Source: Candidatus Proelusimicrobium volucris (GTDB taxonomy: Bacteria > Elusimicrobiota > Elusimicrobia > Elusimicrobiales > Elusimicrobiaceae). Taken from it: DNA of 64,000 bases. The stretch is from the NCBI GenBank assembly GCA_944324665.1, contig CALUXD010000002.1, positions 478,694-542,693 of the forward strand, given 5' to 3'. A program made the translations under genes and the position numbers. The notes below the pieces were generated by a model that was not told where the DNA came from, did no database searches, and worked only from the letters and a program-made list of their open reading frames with translations. Position 1 is the first letter of the stretch. Each line of letters opens with the position of its first letter. Of the stretch, positions 10,718 to 19,088 are shown one piece after another.

Positions 10718-13700
10718 CTAGTTGGGAAGAGGATTGTTCAAATCGGTAGTGGGAGGTTCCTCCCCTTTATCCTTACCGCCCTTTATCTTATCCTTATACA
10801 AGCCCACCACATAGTCCGAAGCCTCCTTAAACTCCTGCTTGATAAATTTGTACAAGGTTGAATTATCCAACATTTTATTGGTCGCTATCATACTGGCAAC
10901 CAACATTGCCAGCGAGGCCATTACCCTAGCATAGGGAACATTTAGCCAATCGTTCAGATAGGTTATCGGCATGGATAACCCAACCGCTATGGGCATGGTA
11001 AAACTCATTCCTTGCGATATTTGGCTTTGCAGTTCGGGGTGTTTCCTTATGATATAAGCGAACATCTGCGAAAAGTAATTACCCATGCCTATACTGGCTA
11101 TCACGCCGCTCGATACTATCAGCGAAGGAATATCCGCCATTATACCAGCCAATATCCCCGCCGTACCAAGACCGGAAAGCGAAGAATACACCAAATATGA
11201 CGTACCGGAAGATATCCTGGTAGTCGTTATATTTCCGAGCAATCTGCCGAACATTAACGAACCATACAGAACCCCTATCACCATTACCGTAGCCATATCG
11301 CCGTCGGGTATTATCTGATACAAAGTCGAGGAAAACGCACTGGATACCGAAAGTTCATGCGCCGTCGCCAAAGACATTCCCACCACTACACTCATAACAC
11401 CTTCTTTATGGAGCATAATGTCAAACACTTCTTTTATGTCCTGCCAATAGCTCTTTTTGTTTTCCTGCTTGGCGCTTTCCGCGGCTATCGCGGCGGCTTC
11501 AGTTTCGTCTCCCGCTGAGGCCATTTGGTATACATCGTTCTTAATGTGGTCTATTATAATATTGTCCCTTAAATTAGTACGGTGCACTCTATATCCAGCG
11601 TATGCGCTGTACGCCGCATATAACGGCAAGGATACGTCCCAGCCGAAATTAAAGTCCATCCCAAAAGCCCGTCCCGCATAGTTTAACGCCGAAGGCGCAA
11701 CCAAAAACGCCATCGTACCGATATTCTTGTTTATAAAACTGCGGTTATAGAACAAAATATCTTCCATCGAGAAATCACTCCCGCCTGAAAACAGTTTTTT
11801 GAATTTTTCAATTAAAATATCGGTCGTAACTTTAAGCGCCTCGGAAAAGTTCTGTTCCTCTTTTTTCTTATCCTTGGCAATCGGCATCGCGCCCCTGTTC
11901 ATATTTATCAGGGAGTTGCCCAAGACGTTTCTTATATTTATCGAAAATCCCAAAGCGAACAATGCCAAACCGAGCGATATATTCCTAAGCAATGTCGGCT
12001 CCATTGCGTAAGAATAGCCATAAAAGCCGAATATCGCCGGTACAACTGCCGCAAGCATGGATATTACTATCGATACTTTAAACATCGCCACTTCGCCGAA
12101 TTTCTTTACCAAAGGATTTAACATCGGCGAGAGCAGCCCCGGCAGATAGTTTACCACGTACATCAAATTAGTGGCGAAGGCCTCGCTTACTCCCAAAGAT
12201 TCCGGCAATACGGGGCCCAAAGTTTTGCCCAAGCTGGGGTTAATGTAAAAACCTTCCTTTGTGATGACATCGGCCTTATTGTGATTTTGCATTACTTCAA
12301 TAGGCAGAACATTCTTTGACTGTTCCAATACTTTCAGTAATGTGCCGCGTTGATTTTTTGGTATTCTTACCACGACGGTAGACCCCAAAGAACTCGGCAT
12401 TGCCGACTTGTTCGACATCACCCCGACATTGCCCGAAGGCATCAAAACCAATTTGTCGCCTTGTTTAAGGAAGTTGGCATCCGTTATCACTTTTATGGGC
12501 AATTCTTCCTTGCCATCGGCATTGTAGAGCGGAACGGTAACGGTTTTGGAGGGCTCTATACCGTACTGCCACAATTTTATAGTTATATTTTCTTTTGCGT
12601 CTTTAAGAGCTTGAGCGAACTTTATAAGGCTCTTATTTTCCGTCTTAAGCCTCAAATAGAAGTTGGACATCGTCCTGGGTTTCTTGCCAAACTCCCTAAG
12701 CTCCGCGGTATTATTGTTGAAAACTATATTTGTATATCCGTTTGTATCGAAATCCTCGTGGAAGGAAAGCGACACCGGCAAGACCATATCGCGCCCAGCG
12801 CCGTTTATAACGCTTACGGTATAGCTCTTTCCTTCAAGAGAAACATCAAAATTGCGCCGCCCCGCCGCGGCTTGAGCCTCGCTAGAAAAAGCGATATTGT
12901 CCGCTTCCAGAAAATTCAGCCCTTTATTAAATGACATATAGTCATTTAAGTCGGAAGTCAGCTTCTCGGAGAAATTCCCCCCTTTGCCGTCTATCTTGCG
13001 GTAAAACATAGATACAAGGGAATATTCGCCGGCTTTTCTCAAAGCGCTGAATACGATTACCAATTCCTCTCCGTCATCGCCTTTTATTCTGTATGTAAGT
13101 TTTTCAGGGAAGCCGGCTTCCTGGGAAACTGGCGCATATTCCCGCAGTATGGAGGGCAGCTTAAGCAAATCGCCTTTGCTTATATACTTTTCGCCATTAT
13201 ATTTCCGCCCGTCTTTAAGCCTGTCATCGGAATGTTTAAAAATTATCTTGGTCAAGCCGAAATTGGAGAACGTCCCTCTAAGCCTTTTAAGCTCAGGGCC
13301 CTGTACTACAAGATCCCCTTTTCTGTTAGTAGCCGCATGGCCGTGCAATATCTTAAAAGTAAAGTTATCTACTTTTATCTCCGCCATCAGCTTGGAGGCT
13401 TTGCCCTTCGGATTGGCTTTTACTTCGTCCCAAGCCGCGGAGAGGGCTTTTTCCTCCCCTATTTTCTGCTGGGAGGCCGCTCTCCTTGCCCGTTCGTCCG
13501 CATAATAGGGACGCGTCCTATAAGATGATGTCGAAGATGTTAAATGCGGTATGGCGGGTATCTCGTAGACGTATTTATCCGTTCCGAAAACGCGGGAGAC
13601 ATCGTCGTATCCACCGGGCCAGACAAAATCCCACCCGCCAAGCGCGGCGGCTTTCCTGCTTAATTCCCACGAAAAATTATTATCGCCGTAAACTTTAAAT

Positions 13701-16700
13701 TCGCTTGAGGCGGGAGAATCAAAAAGTTTAACTCCAAAAGATTTTGCCGGGCTTATATTTATATTCAGCAGGCGCCTGTCAAAATAACCATACAAATCTT
13801 TTGCAAACATCAATCCCATTCCCGCCGCGCCCGCTAAGGAATAACCGGCTTTGGAAACATTGCCCAACAGCCCCTTTATACTGAAATCGTTTATAAGATT
13901 ACCGCCGGGCAGCGGCACCCCGCGGAAAAATTCAAATATCTTGGGGTCTATTACGCTTACCGGCTGGACTTTCGGCATAACGGGCATAAGGGGAGTGTTA
14001 GCTCTTGCGGTGCCAAAACTCAGCGTTTTGCCCAAATTCAAACCCTTCTCCGTATTCAGCACCCATTCGGTACCGGCCGTTAAATTCCTGCCAAAAGCGC
14101 CGACTTGCGGCACCGTCGTCGCTACATTATAATTGAATATAAGAGCCGTACCTAATACCGTCGCCCTGTTGTTTATGAATTTAAGGAAATCCGCCGCAGG
14201 CTTCATCTTATGCGCGGAAAGGAAATTGTAAAATTTGTTCACGGGCGTTTTATCGGAAGCGCCGCCAAAGAGTTTAAAGCCTTTCGTATAATTGGGATTG
14301 TACGGAGTGGTAATTCCCAAAGCCTCGGCTATCGTTATGCCTCTTTCGGTTTCCAACGCGGCGATGCCCAAGGTTCCGTCTCCTGAAGGTGCCCAAAAGT
14401 TCTGCCACGGCTTGAGTATATTCTTATTCCACCAGCCAGCGGCTTTATAATCCGCTCTGGCGGAATTTAAACTCTTAAGGGCTGAAGAAAACGTTTCGCC
14501 CGCATTTAAATATCCCAGTTCGCCGGCAGTGTAGAGCGGAGCGGAAGGCACCGTCTTTAAATCCGAAGCCAAAGATTTTATTTCCTTGCCTAAAACCTCA
14601 ATTTCCGAGGCCGCCCCGCCCTCGGCTTTAAGCGAGGCTAGCTTGGATAGTTTTGAATTATATATATTTACGTTTGAATTATAGTCCTTAACTTTTTGAA
14701 GATAAGCCGCGTTTTTGCTTTCCACCGAAGAACCGTATGCTCTGGCTTTTTTAACTAAATTTATCTGAGCCTGCTTAGCCTTATATTCCGCCGTAGCCAA
14801 TTTCGCTTTTGTCACTTGCCTTTGAGTGGGATTGGCGCTGTTTCTCACCGCCATAACAGCTTTTTTGCGGCTGTCATATAAAGATGCCAGTTGCTTATTG
14901 TTAAAATAATTTTCCAACTTTATCGCCTGACGGCTCTCGTTAGTCCCCACACCTGCAGCCGCGGCCGCACCTTTAACCTGTAAAGAAGAGCCTTTTATTC
15001 TCCCGCTCAAACGCAGCATATTGTTGCGCGCGGATATGTATTTGCCCATCTTCGCGTAATTGGCCCTGATATAAGATATCCTCTTCGCGCTGTCGGCTAT
15101 GCGCCCCGCTTTTACCGCGGTATATGTGGATTTACTCAAAGCAAAAGCCTTCCCGCCCAGTTTTGCAAGCGCAACCGTTCCCCAGATAAGGAGTAATATA
15201 TCTCCCGCGAAGGCGGCGTTGTCTAAATAGTCAAACCTCTTGTTGCGCGCTTTCCTTGCCGCAAGCTGATTAGGGGTTATTACGGCGCCGGAATTAAGTT
15301 TCCCTTTTATCGCGGGATACTTGGCCAGCAAATCTTTGTCTATATCGTATTCCTGCAAAGCGGTTATGTCGCCTAAAGTCAAATTGGCAAAAGCCGCCGC
15401 CATATTCCCGGCAGCTTCCGCGCTCAGCCCCGATTTGCCGCTTATCAAAGCCCCGGCCAAAAACGGTTTTATGCCGCCTTCCAGCCCTTTATCCGCGCCG
15501 TATTCCTTAAGTATCGCCAAAGCCTCCTTACCGCCGTCCTCGGCAAGTAAAAGAGCGATGTCGGTAAAGGAGTTGCCGTAAAGATAATCGCCACTGTACT
15601 GGGTTTGGTAAGAGGCTTTGCCCAAAAATTGTCCGCCCGCCGTGCGCGCTTTTGAAGAGTATAAAGTTAAATTCAGATATTCGCCGAAACTTGCCCCTTC
15701 CTTTTCCTTTAATGTATAGCGGGAGAGCATCTCTCTTAAAGAAGAATATTCTTCCGCCGCCAACAGGGCGGAAAATCCGTTGCTAAGTATTTGCCCAAAG
15801 CCAGCTCCGCTCTCCGAGGCGTATATCACGCGTTTGACGGCCTTTGCGTAACGGCCGCCGTCTTTGGCCGAAACATAAGAACCGATAATTATCGTGTCTA
15901 TAATATCGCCCAGCAGTACTGCGGCAATCTTTTTTTCTTTTTTCCCGCTGGTTATGCCAAGTTTAAGCGAGTTTAGATTTTGCTTTTCCAAACGGGAAAC
16001 AGCATAATTGTATATATTCTCTTTTTCGGCGGCGGTCATAACCGCTTTGCCGCCTATTTTAAGATGGATAAGGTAGCGCAAAACGTTTGAGGATAAATTT
16101 TCCGCGCCGACGGCTTCTATATACTTGCGCAGAACTTTATAAGCAGAAGCGTCAACCTTAGTTTTATTTGCCTTTCGCCAAGCTATCTCTTCTTTTGCCT
16201 CTTTTTGATATTGGGCATAATAATCTTTAAGGGGATATCCCTCTTTCAATTTGGCCGAGGCGGCATCCAGAGGGCTTTTATACGGTATTGCGCTTAGCGA
16301 AGGATTCTTTTTTAGATATTCCCGCGCCGCTTCATCTATTATTGTATTGTAAAATTTTTCATATTCCTTTAAAGGCATTACCCTGGGAGTAATAAAATAA
16401 GCCGCCAAATAGGCCATCAAATCGTTTTCAAGGTTTTTTATATCCTTTGCGCCCACCCTTTTTACGTACATAGGGCTCATTGATCCGTATTTAGTTTTCC
16501 CCGTCTTTATCAGCGCGGCGAGTTTGGCGCGGCTTTTATTGGAATCCAAAGACTTTAAAATTAAATCGGTTTCCCTGTTAAGGGAGGCTTCATAAATGTT
16601 GCCTTCTTCTCCTTTCAAGAATAAATCTTCCAATTTGGCATCAAAATCCGACAAAACGGCCGCGTCGAAGCCGACATAAGGCAAAGATTCATCCCATTGG

Positions 16701-16807
16701 GAAAAATCAACTCCAGCGAAAGCCGCCGTATTACATTCAAAAAGAATAGTAAAAGACAAAACTATCGAAATAATTTTTACGCCCAAAGAAGAAAGAATCT
16801 TTTTCAT
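10718..16807 (-). CDS. Giant secreted protein fused to a C-terminal MFS-like membrane module
   Basis: A 2029-residue protein I cannot assign to a named family. A signal peptide with basic start and hydrophobic core ends near A-A-F-A (residue 31). Residues ~32-1530 are a long, mostly soluble region rich in Ala/Lys/Ser with helical and coiled stretches, one hydrophobic patch near 530, and later beta-rich parts. From about 1540 to 1985 there are roughly ten hydrophobic segments in two blocks with a charged linker, resembling the two halves of a major facilitator transporter (for example VIGVLYGSLMFGRLLGNI in the second half). The tail is Lys/Glu/Pro-rich. It has its own long leader and terminator and no operon partner. 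If exported, the large domain would be periplasmic and the C-terminal module would sit in the inner membrane. Function unknown. Confidence 0.85.
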   Translation of the reverse strand: MKKILSSLGVKIISIVLSFTILFECNTAAFAGVDFSQWDESLPYVGFDAAVLSDFDAKLEDLFLKGEEGNIYEASLNRETDLILKSLDSNKSRAKLAALIKTGKTKYGSMSPMYVKRVGAKDIKNLENDLMAYLAAYFITPRVMPLKEYEKFYNTIIDEAAREYLKKNPSLSAIPYKSPLDAASAKLKEGYPLKDYYAQYQKEAKEEIAWRKANKTKVDASAYKVLRKYIEAVGAENLSSNVLRYLIHLKIGGKAVMTAAEKENIYNYAVSRLEKQNLNSLKLGITSGKKEKKIAAVLLGDIIDTIIIGSYVSAKDGGRYAKAVKRVIYASESGAGFGQILSNGFSALLAAEEYSSLREMLSRYTLKEKEGASFGEYLNLTLYSSKARTAGGQFLGKASYQTQYSGDYLYGNSFTDIALLLAEDGGKEALAILKEYGADKGLEGGIKPFLAGALISGKSGLSAEAAGNMAAAFANLTLGDITALQEYDIDKDLLAKYPAIKGKLNSGAVITPNQLAARKARNKRFDYLDNAAFAGDILLLIWGTVALAKLGGKAFALSKSTYTAVKAGRIADSAKRISYIRANYAKMGKYISARNNMLRLSGRIKGSSLQVKGAAAAAGVGTNESRQAIKLENYFNNKQLASLYDSRKKAVMAVRNSANPTQRQVTKAKLATAEYKAKQAQINLVKKARAYGSSVESKNAAYLQKVKDYNSNVNIYNSKLSKLASLKAEGGAASEIEVLGKEIKSLASDLKTVPSAPLYTAGELGYLNAGETFSSALKSLNSARADYKAAGWWNKNILKPWQNFWAPSGDGTLGIAALETERGITIAEALGITTPYNPNYTKGFKLFGGASDKTPVNKFYNFLSAHKMKPAADFLKFINNRATVLGTALIFNYNVATTVPQVGAFGRNLTAGTEWVLNTEKGLNLGKTLSFGTARANTPLMPVMPKVQPVSVIDPKIFEFFRGVPLPGGNLINDFSIKGLLGNVSKAGYSLAGAAGMGLMFAKDLYGYFDRRLLNINISPAKSFGVKLFDSPASSEFKVYGDNNFSWELSRKAAALGGWDFVWPGGYDDVSRVFGTDKYVYEIPAIPHLTSSTSSYRTRPYYADERARRAASQQKIGEEKALSAAWDEVKANPKGKASKLMAEIKVDNFTFKILHGHAATNRKGDLVVQGPELKRLRGTFSNFGLTKIIFKHSDDRLKDGRKYNGEKYISKGDLLKLPSILREYAPVSQEAGFPEKLTYRIKGDDGEELVIVFSALRKAGEYSLVSMFYRKIDGKGGNFSEKLTSDLNDYMSFNKGLNFLEADNIAFSSEAQAAAGRRNFDVSLEGKSYTVSVINGAGRDMVLPVSLSFHEDFDTNGYTNIVFNNNTAELREFGKKPRTMSNFYLRLKTENKSLIKFAQALKDAKENITIKLWQYGIEPSKTVTVPLYNADGKEELPIKVITDANFLKQGDKLVLMPSGNVGVMSNKSAMPSSLGSTVVVRIPKNQRGTLLKVLEQSKNVLPIEVMQNHNKADVITKEGFYINPSLGKTLGPVLPESLGVSEAFATNLMYVVNYLPGLLSPMLNPLVKKFGEVAMFKVSIVISMLAAVVPAIFGFYGYSYAMEPTLLRNISLGLALFALGFSINIRNVLGNSLINMNRGAMPIAKDKKKEEQNFSEALKVTTDILIEKFKKLFSGGSDFSMEDILFYNRSFINKNIGTMAFLVAPSALNYAGRAFGMDFNFGWDVSLPLYAAYSAYAGYRVHRTNLRDNIIIDHIKNDVYQMASAGDETEAAAIAAESAKQENKKSYWQDIKEVFDIMLHKEGVMSVVVGMSLATAHELSVSSAFSSTLYQIIPDGDMATVMVIGVLYGSLMFGRLLGNITTTRISSGTSYLVYSSLSGLGTAGILAGIMADIPSLIVSSGVIASIGMGNYFSQMFAYIIRKHPELQSQISQGMSFTMPIAVGLSMPITYLNDWLNVPYARVMASLAMLVASMIATNKMLDNSTLYKFIKQEFKEASDYVVGLYKDKIKGGKDKGEEPPTTDLNNPLPN

Positions 16808-16875
16808 TTATTATCTACCGTTTAATTCCCGTTGGTCTTAGAGAAACCTTTCCTTTTTATTTTATTGCCTTAAGA

Positions 16876-16908
16876 CCAAAAAAAAGGCGTCTAAATATTT
16901 TTAGGCAC
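16876..16908 (-). terminator. Attenuator-like terminator inside the leader of the 2029-residue gene
   Basis: On the minus strand AAAGGTGCCTAAA, loop AATA and TTTAGACGCCTTT form a 13-bp stem with one mismatch and one wobble, followed by a run of Ts (eight in all). It lies about 70 bases before the ATG and inside the predicted 5' leader, so it would stop transcription unless antiterminated. Alternatively it ends a separate small RNA. Confidence 0.7.
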
Positions 16909-16935
16909 CTTTTCCGAAATCCGATTTTATTTTTA

Positions 16936-17094
16936 TGCAGGGACACGCTTCCCTGCCGCGGCCTGCAGCACTCCCACAAGGGAGCTGCCCTGCGAATACC
17001 AAACGCTTAAAGCGGGCCCTGCTTTTGCAAGCCCAGGCGCCTCCTTCGCTTATGTTCATTAAATAATTCATAAACATCTTTGGTATCCTTTCGC
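16936..17094 (-). ncRNA. Candidate structured 5' leader or small RNA
   Basis: Read on the minus strand, this segment folds into several strong helices. A closing stem joins GCGA/ATACC (17094-17082) with GGTATTCGC (17000-16992). A hairpin ATGTTTAT/ATGAACAT lies inside it, then AAGCG/CGCTT with an inner GGGC..GCCC stem and AAAA loop. Outside it are GCAGCTCCC/GGGA-GT-GCTGC (16989-16966) and GCAGGGA/TCCCTGC (16955-16936). A terminator follows. I compared it by eye with tmRNA, RNase P, SRP, 6S and common riboswitch cores and saw no match. Its GC content is far above the flanking AT-rich DNA. Confidence 0.55.
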
Positions 17095-17138
17095 TAAAAT
17101 ATATAAATTACAAAAACAGTCAAACTTCTTATATATAA

Positions 17139-17210
17139 ATTTTATTCTTTTTTCGAGTTATCCCTCAAGCAAATTTTAGGCCCATTCTTAGCTGGGTCTT
17201 AAGTCCTAAG
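17139..17210 (-). promoter_or_regulatory. Promoter of the 2029-residue gene with the shared GGnCTAAAGACC element
   Basis: Minus strand: element TTAGGACTTAAGACCCA (17209-17193), second half-site near 17184-17174, -35 TTGAGG (17168-17163), 18-base spacer, -10 TAAAAT (17144-17139). Transcription from here would give a leader of about 325 bases containing the structured RNA and the attenuator-like terminator. The same arrangement occurs before the genes at 35128, 47098, 48211 and 52161. Confidence 0.6.
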
Positions 17211-17367: not shown

Positions 17368-18366
17368 TTATTTTGAGGCTTCTTCTATCGCTACCGCTAC
17401 CGCGACGCTTGCGCCTACCATCGGGTTGTTGCCCATACCGATGAGACCCATCATCTCTACGTGTGCGGGAACCGAAGAAGAACCAGCGAACTGTGCGTCA
17501 CCGTGCATGCGGCCCATGGTGTCGGTCATACCGTAAGAAGCAGGACCCGCGGCCATATTGTCGGGGTGCAACGTTCTGCCGGTACCGCCGCCGGAAGCCA
17601 CGGAGAAATATTTCTTGCCGTGTTCGGTCGCCCATTTCTTATAGGTGCCGGCTACCGGGTGCTGGAAGCGTGTCGGGTTGGTGGAGTTGCCGGTAATGGA
17701 AACGTCCACGTCCTCGTGCCTCATTATGGCGACGCCTTCGTTTACGTCGTCGGCGCCATAGCATTTGACTTTGGCTTTATCGCCGTCGGAGAAAGCCTTC
17801 TCGCTTACTATATTAAGTTTGCCCGTATAGTAATCGTAAGAGGTTTCTACATACGTGAACCCGTTGATGCGGGATATAATATAAGCCGCGTCTTTGCCAA
17901 GACCGTTCAAAATAACTTTAAGAGGCTCTTTTCTTACTTTATTGGCCGTTCTGGCAATACCGATTGCGCCTTCCGCCGCGGCGAAAGATTCATGCCCCGC
18001 CAAGAAGCAGAAGCATTTCGTGTTTTCGCGCAACAGCATGGCAGCCAAATTGCCGTGGCCAAGGCCTACTTCGCGCTGATCGGCTACGGAGCCGGGTACG
18101 CAGAAGCTCTGCAAGCCTACGCCGATTTTTTCGGCCGCTTCAGCCGCGGTTTTTACCCCGCTCTTTATCGCTATCGCCGCGCCGACAGTATAGGCCCAGA
18201 CGGCGTTTTCAAAAGCGATGGGCTGTATGCCTTTTACTATCTTTTCTACGTCTATGCCTTTATCGTCGCAGATCTTTTTTGCGTCTTCCAAGGAGGCAAT
18301 GCCGTTCTCTTTCAAGGCGGCGTTTATTTTGTCTATTCTTCTTTCATAACCTTCAAATGTAATCAT
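17368..18366 (-). CDS. GGGtGRT family protein
   Basis: A 332-residue protein of the family named after its glycine-rich GGGTGRT motif, here near residue 257 followed by LHPDN. No signal peptide or membrane segment. Other conserved-looking stretches are F-C-V-P-G-S-V-A-D-Q-R, CFLAGHESFAAAEGA and TGNSTNPTRFQHP. The biochemical function of this family is not established. Here, as in several anaerobes, it directly follows a NifU-like scaffold gene (20-base gap), which suggests a shared Fe-S or metal-related role; that is inference. A 325-codon open frame lies antisense to it but is a shadow of its codon usage. Confidence 0.9.
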   Translation of the reverse strand: MITFEGYERRIDKINAALKENGIASLEDAKKICDDKGIDVEKIVKGIQPIAFENAVWAYTVGAAIAIKSGVKTAAEAAEKIGVGLQSFCVPGSVADQREVGLGHGNLAAMLLRENTKCFCFLAGHESFAAAEGAIGIARTANKVRKEPLKVILNGLGKDAAYIISRINGFTYVETSYDYYTGKLNIVSEKAFSDGDKAKVKCYGADDVNEGVAIMRHEDVDVSITGNSTNPTRFQHPVAGTYKKWATEHGKKYFSVASGGGTGRTLHPDNMAAGPASYGMTDTMGRMHGDAQFAGSSSVPAHVEMMGLIGMGNNPMVGASVAVAVAIEEASK

Positions 18367-18386
18367 AGTGTTATATTCCTCCCCGG

Positions 18387-19088
18387 TTACTCTTTGCGCG
18401 GATCTATCTTCTTGACGGCTTCGTTGAAGCGCCCGTAAGAATTGATGTTTTTCTCATAGGCGGTTTTCGGATCTTCGCCTTTCTTTATGGCGTCCATCAT
18501 TTTGCCCAAATTGACGAATTTGTATCCGATGACTTCATTATTTTTGTCAAGGCCGATCTCAAGGACATAGCCTTCCGCCATTTCCAGGTAGCGGGGGCCT
18601 TTGGCTTCGGTGCTGTACATCGTGCCCACTTGCGAGCGCAAGCCTTTGCCCAAATCTTCCATACCGGCGCCTATCGGCAACCCGTCGTCGGAGAACGCGC
18701 TCTGCGTTCTGCCGTATACTATCTGGAGGAATAATTCTCTCATAGCCGTATTGATGGCGTCGCAGACTAAATCGGAATTTAAAGCTTCAAGAATGGTTTT
18801 GCCCGGCAAAATTTCCGCAGCCATAGCCGCAGAGTGCGTCATACCGGAGCAGCCCAAAGTTTCCACCAAGGCTTCCTTTATTATGCCGTTCTTTACGTTT
18901 AACGTAAGTTTGCACGCGCCCTGCTGGGGTGCGCACCAACCCACACCGTGCGTAAGACCGCTGATATCCGTTATCTGTTTGGAATTGACCCATTTTCCTT
19001 CTTCAGGGATAGGGGCCGGATTATGTTTAGCGCCTTTGCATACGCTGCACATACTTTCAACGTGAGGGGTGCATTTTTCGCAGCTCAT
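18387..19088 (-). CDS. NifU/IscU-like Fe-S cluster scaffold protein (GGGtGRT-associated)
   Basis: A 233-residue protein of the IscU/NifU N-terminal scaffold fold. The extreme N-terminus adds Cys-x2-Cys pairs (C3/C6 and C14/C17) not found in plain IscU. The scaffold core shows WCAPQQGAC-KL, LGCSGMTHSAAMAAE and a later conserved region with D-G-L-P-I-G-A-G. GGAGATAACA precedes the ATG. Gene order scaffold then GGGtGRT protein indicates a two-gene operon. No cysteine desulfurase is visible in the window. Confidence 0.85.
   Translation of the reverse strand: MSCEKCTPHVESMCSVCKGAKHNPAPIPEEGKWVNSKQITDISGLTHGVGWCAPQQGACKLTLNVKNGIIKEALVETLGCSGMTHSAAMAAEILPGKTILEALNSDLVCDAINTAMRELFLQIVYGRTQSAFSDDGLPIGAGMEDLGKGLRSQVGTMYSTEAKGPRYLEMAEGYVLEIGLDKNNEVIGYKFVNLGKMMDAIKKGEDPKTAYEKNINSYGRFNEAVKKIDPRKE

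Follow-up and report, generated by a model that had tools for sequence, protein, structure and literature searches.

The window analysed here, a stretch of 64,000 nucleotides within a 1.5-Mb genome of Candidatus Proelusimicrobium volucris (Elusimicrobiota), carries on its minus strand a folded leader at about 17131-16832, located between a promoter and an open reading frame (ORF) of 2029 amino acids at 10718-16807, called here the giant gene. The features of the locus, in the order in which they would be transcribed, are:

17166-17206, minus strand: promoter/operator motif, GGNCYTNNGNNC-N12-GNNC-N7..9-CTTG, matching the genus-wide pattern
17139-17168, minus strand: promoter TTGAGG-18-TAAAAT, a -35/-10 pair present in 5/5 orthologues
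about 17131, minus strand: estimated transcription start
17086-17090, minus strand: Shine-Dalgarno-like AAGGA, 8 nt 5' of the leader ORF start
16901-17077, minus strand: leader ORF of 58 codons, ATG at 17077-17075 and TAA at 16903-16901
16994-17088, minus strand: closing stem, 17088-17080 (GGATACCAA) with 17002-16994 (TTGGTATTC)
17078-17071 with 17009-17002, minus strand: start-codon pairing, alongside the closing stem
17010-17045, minus strand: internal hairpin within the closing stem (helix 2), 13 pairs
16965-16992, minus strand: hairpin 3, 11 pairs
16940-16959, minus strand: hairpin 4, 6 pairs
16879-16915, minus strand: intrinsic terminator of 15 pairs with an eight-T run at 16886-16879 and the ORF stop in its 5' arm
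16832-16879, minus strand: post-terminator hairpin with an A-rich loop, arms 16879-16871 and 16840-16832
10718-16807, minus strand: giant gene, 2029 amino acids, presumed target, with a signal-peptide-like N-terminus

A preliminary description, made from the letters of the window, had named a promoter, a closing stem, three hairpins and a terminator followed by eight Ts, all of which can be found on the minus strand; the eight Ts stand as described, and the terminator stem has 15 pairs in place of the 13 bp claimed. The element as delimited there leaves out its best-covarying helix (16879-16832), which lies between the terminator and the giant start codon. The ORF at 16901-17077, which spans the whole of the supposed aptamer and has its stop inside the terminator stem, had been overlooked.

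The own genome is denoted G000; close orthologues of the locus were found in G007, G011 and G017, and a diverged one in G004. The nearest relatives carrying the same giant gene are metagenome assemblies (4/4 loci), which we take to be of gut or rumen origin. The leader accompanies the giant gene in all five orthologues; G000, G007 and G011 share one upstream neighbour and G017 has another, so leader and giant gene evidently move together. Near-full-length homologues of the leader occur in four of 90 genomes of the family, the own genome included, the other three having 86, 79 and 72% identity. In G004 the leader is recognisable by sequence in its latter part and by its layout; ahead of the terminator region its sequence can barely be aligned. 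A covariance model of the leader, run against 149 genomes of the order, matched strongly only its four training sequences, with weak matches in G044 (E 0.004) and G011:C1 (E 0.05). A phage origin was considered and rejected, the leader DNA being unmatched in 50,697 phage records and the core pattern absent from viral contigs.

The giant protein matched no family above the cut-off, MFS_1 being found below the threshold only. Its last 550 amino acids have 70-95% identity and its first 400 have 47-74%; the structure predicted for the last 550 (pLDDT 34.8) was not used. Several giant paralogues are present in the own genome, and sister-genus homologues have leaders of their own (L054, L056). A conserved ACGGTGA/ACGGTAGA, found at 16814-16821 (minus strand), lies shortly before the giant start codons, also at other giant genes, and is perhaps a variant ribosome-binding site. 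Elsewhere in the window, at 17368-19088 (minus strand), a gene for a GGGtGRT protein (PF14057) adjoins one that matches NifU_N below the threshold, and the two are also found together in G013.

The analysis confirms the folded leader and its conservation. When folded alone, a stretch of 231 nt reached a minimum free energy of -82.6 kcal/mol (z -3.5), which none of 200 shuffles equalled; the opposite strand gave z -4.1, so that the strand is not given by the folding energy alone. The consensus structure was obtained with RNAalifold on a sequence-only alignment of four genomes, leaving off the three outermost pairs. Compensatory changes in homologues, which the preliminary description had proposed to seek, affect 15 of the 72 pairs of this six-helix structure (shuffles 6.2 +/- 1.8; 0/500 as high), and 95.5% of its cells in the four-sequence alignment are paired. 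When partners were slid by 1-3 columns, at most four pairs were compensated; this control is biased in favour of the structure, which was derived from the same sequences.

The helices contribute unequally to this signal. The post-terminator hairpin covaries best, with 8 of 11 pairs compensated, and it forms in 5/5 orthologues; it extends from the final T of the eight-T run to a point 24 nt short of the giant ATG. Hairpin 3 has 3 compensated pairs out of 11, hairpin 4 has 3 out of 6, and the internal hairpin has 1 out of 13 with 100% of its cells paired. No pair of the terminator is compensated, its sequence hardly varying among the four genomes, and the nearly invariant closing stem has no compensated pair in the sequence-only alignment; after re-alignment by hand it pairs fully in 4/4, with one double change from A-U to G-C. 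Through this stem, codons 26-28 of the leader ORF are base-paired to the Shine-Dalgarno site, and the most invariant segment of the leader, where a ligand pocket might be sought, is explicable by its pairing with the Shine-Dalgarno site and AUG (5 sequences). The gating fold of G004 differs from that of the close orthologues. As had been expected, the core matches no known RNA: a search of the whole window with the covariance models of Rfam 15 (4227 families) returned two tRNAs only, and at E up to 10 the leader region gave only weak matches, far below the gathering scores.

The whole part previously seen as an aptamer is open in one frame, which has 58 codons in 4/4 close orthologues and 63 in G004, with AAGGA or AGGGA 7-8 nt upstream of the ATG in 5/5. 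No stop occurs in 4 x 58 codons, as compared with a mean of 12.6 in column shuffles, of which a fraction of 0.001 was stop-free. Furthermore, the ORF is free of indels in 6/6 genome pairs, while its flanks have 3-4 events. Of 4000 dinucleotide shuffles, just 22 left the 63-codon frame of G004 open; the corresponding share for the own sequence was about 4.5%, long frames being fairly common in GC-rich RNA. Frame 0 has the top codon score among the three plus-strand frames in 5/5 orthologues, and in G011 one minus-strand frame outscores it. The substitution-based score for protein-likeness is not significant on its own (fraction 0.073, and 0.053 for one minus-strand frame).

The amino-acid sequence is weakly conserved, with dN/dS of 0.50-1.12 and little third-position excess. 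Compared with G007, the own genome differs at synonymous sites by 0.25 in the leader ORF against 0.58 in the giant gene, and at nonsynonymous sites by 0.14 against 0.10. The slower synonymous sites, together with the weak amino-acid conservation, indicate that selection holds the nucleotides and not mainly the peptide, while the frame stays open. No convincing match to the peptide was obtained in Pfam, PHROGs or NCBIfam, and the translations from 5/5 orthologues contain no codon run for one amino acid. In the folding of growing transcripts, the openness of the Shine-Dalgarno site drops about 90 nt past the ATG in G000, G011 and G017; there is an earlier dip in G000, the drop comes somewhat earlier in G004, and none is seen in G007.

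In 4/5 orthologues the stop codon of the leader ORF falls within the terminator's 5' arm, and in G004 it precedes that arm by 1 nt. For ordinary genes of the window, the linked terminators begin 13-54 nt past the stop in 15 of the 20 cases listed, and 79-298 nt past it in the remaining five. According to a study of Escherichia coli, moving a stop from 28 to 5 bp before the terminator tR2 lowered termination from about 90% to below 10%, an effect for which translation was needed (PMC4824070). The same study describes a terminator almost fully repressed by the ribosome when the stop is a few bp upstream, with full efficiency beyond about 30 bp, and ribosomes that are often still trailing behind over the initial 100 bp of an ORF (PMC4824070). 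Set against this 100-bp lag, the 177 nt of the leader ORF make coupling plausible, not assured. In the four-sequence alignment no conserved strong anti-terminator pairing was found; the alternative pairings between leader and terminator arm, present in 4/4, are short and G-U-rich (6 bp at columns 176/284 and 6-8 bp at 145/310).

The promoter motif places the leader in a wider context. The pattern, built from the upstream regions of giant paralogues, had 74 matches across 18 of the genus's genomes, and the reversed control pattern had one. Matches at the giant paralogues themselves are circular, which does not apply to the ones in, for example, G005, G006 and G013. Its architecture is that of a palindrome, GGNCTTNAGNCC, followed after about 12 nt by GGNCY and then by CTTG as part of the -35. 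Among 37 matches examined, 29 sit 16-94 nt before an ORF, the first start codon being assigned mechanically, and most of these ORFs have signal-peptide-like starts. The others are the G004 orthologue of the leader, L096 (219 nt from an ORF), two matches too close to a contig end and four in apparent coding sequence. Among these 37, apart from those that could not be judged, a promoter of this type far from its gene is seen only at this leader and at L096. All seven matches of the own genome precede genes whose starts resemble those of exported proteins, six directly and one via this leader. The motif thus points to a genus-wide regulon of exported proteins, of which no description was found. 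As the leader is inserted between motif and gene, transcription is expected to arrive at the giant gene by read-through; no promoter-like site was found between the terminator and the giant ATG (16808-16880). Between promoter and start codon, the leader ORF itself has the spacing that is usual in the regulon (+58 in G004). The view of this region as an attenuator-like leader of the giant gene, put forward in the preliminary description, is supported by the linkage in 5/5 orthologues and by a promoter motif that normally lies right before exported-protein genes.

From these comparisons, the reading which we prefer, at a likelihood just short of even, is that the leader may be a translation-gated transcription attenuator, working like that of pyrBI. 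The regulated promoter would start a transcript carrying the 58-codon leader ORF; a ribosome loading early and moving close behind the RNA polymerase would cover the 5' arm of the terminator, the hairpin would fail, and the polymerase would read through into the giant gene. If the leader were not translated, the terminator would form and the giant gene would stay off. About 90 nt into the ORF, the segment UAAGCGUUUGGUAUUC would pair with the Shine-Dalgarno site and the start codon, ending further loading. We infer that the leader ORF is translated and that its translation causes the read-through; the signal might be ribosome supply or growth rate, or else a binder of the closing stem. The leader peptide itself probably matters little.

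As the main rival to this reading, the leader ORF might instead be a small-protein gene, the first of a two-gene operon in which a leaky terminator sets much small to little giant protein with no coupling, an explanation that we regard as unlikely. It draws on a second giant paralogue with the same order of promoter, small ORF, terminator and giant gene, found in the own genome (L061, G000:C2:402000-404800) and in G007 (L057), G017 (L048) and G004 (L051). There the small ORF, of 76, 78, 80 and 72 codons, respectively, has dN/dS of 0.25-0.30 among G000, G007 and G017 (0.53-0.67 with G004), the terminator begins tens of nt past its stop, and the ORF looks like a real protein from these values. 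In G017 and G004, a hairpin with a long A-rich loop precedes the giant gene of this paralogue. The regulon-like spacing of the leader ORF from its promoter also suits a small-protein gene, but the dN/dS of the leader ORF and its slow synonymous sites point to selection mainly on the RNA, its peptide has no convincing family match, and having the stop within the terminator arm sets it apart from ordinary genes of the window.

The strong constraint and covariation at the nucleotide level, with weak constraint on amino acids, would also fit an attenuator made of RNA only, in which a metabolite, a protein or temperature shifts the terminator and the frame arises incidentally from structured RNA rich in GC. 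This we consider improbable: the leader/terminator-arm alternatives on which it could draw, although found in 4/4, are short and rich in G-U, no Rfam family was better than chance at E up to 10, and the frame is kept in G004 despite an RNA that can hardly be aligned upstream of the terminator region. The aptamer-like transcriptional riboswitch originally proposed is not supported, given that no Rfam match and no conserved strong anti-terminator pairing were found and that the "aptamer" is an ORF with its stop in the terminator arm. Very improbable is a stand-alone small RNA, possibly of dual function, that ends at the terminator and leaves the giant gene to a promoter of its own. The preliminary description had offered a separate small RNA as its alternative, and the complete promoter-to-terminator unit of about 250 nt exists; yet the best-covarying hairpin lies 3' of the T-run, where it is sensible only in a read-through transcript and implies selection on that RNA, the segment 16808-16880 has no promoter-like site, and the leader is strongly matched nowhere else in the 149 genomes of the order.

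It is possible, albeit doubtful, that the leader represents a new attenuator family confined to the genus, in which fold and leader ORF are one RNA, the fold closes the ribosome site after a short window and an early ribosome carries the polymerase through the terminator. In that case it would be a timer by which the rate of translation initiation sets the output of a giant exported protein, and a similar succession of elements would serve the second giant paralogue. If translation-gated attenuation is correct, it would explain a cheap off-state for a 6-kb exported-protein gene. Translation-coupled attenuation would moreover be extended to the Elusimicrobiota, for which neither a study of it nor a paper on such a leader was found in open-licence PubMed Central. 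The layout, with a stop in the terminator arm and a ribosome site shut by codons of the ORF itself, can be searched for elsewhere.

Several known systems share parts of this arrangement. In the ampC attenuator of E. coli, ribosomes that load on the leader are believed to keep the terminator from forming, so that expression follows the supply of ribosomes; its start codon is immediately followed by a stop. The proposed role of a ribosome on the leader in preventing the terminator is alike, while the 58 codons and several conserved hairpins found here are different. Attenuators of the trp and his type likewise have a leader ORF, hairpins and a terminator, but here neither a codon run for a single amino acid nor a strong terminator/anti-terminator pair was found. 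As regards pyrL, the leader of E. coli pyrBI, we know of no case in which the Shine-Dalgarno site and AUG of the leader ORF are folded away as they are here. The likeness to pyrBI consists in a short leader ORF that extends into an intrinsic terminator, a hairpin that a ribosome close by should block and a leader peptide whose sequence is unimportant (PMC4824070, PMC5021804). A pyrBI-like layout is found in 5/5 orthologues, with an ORF and ribosome-binding site between promoter and terminator and the ORF reaching the terminator. In contrast, no pyrimidine gene lies downstream here; pyrBI proper is further characterised by U-rich, UTP-sensitive pause sites of RNA polymerase. As no pyrimidine gene follows and translation-dependent read-through is here a prediction, the leader is likened to pyrBI in outline and not filed as a member. 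The Mbox of pe20 in Mycobacterium tuberculosis is a folded leader that controls both the translation of a small upstream ORF and the premature termination of downstream genes; it contains an established Mg aptamer and its termination depends on Rho, whereas the leader described here has no known aptamer and an intrinsic terminator (PMC12810186). Of the readings considered, that of a leader-ORF attenuator suits the leader best, ahead of that of a riboswitch.
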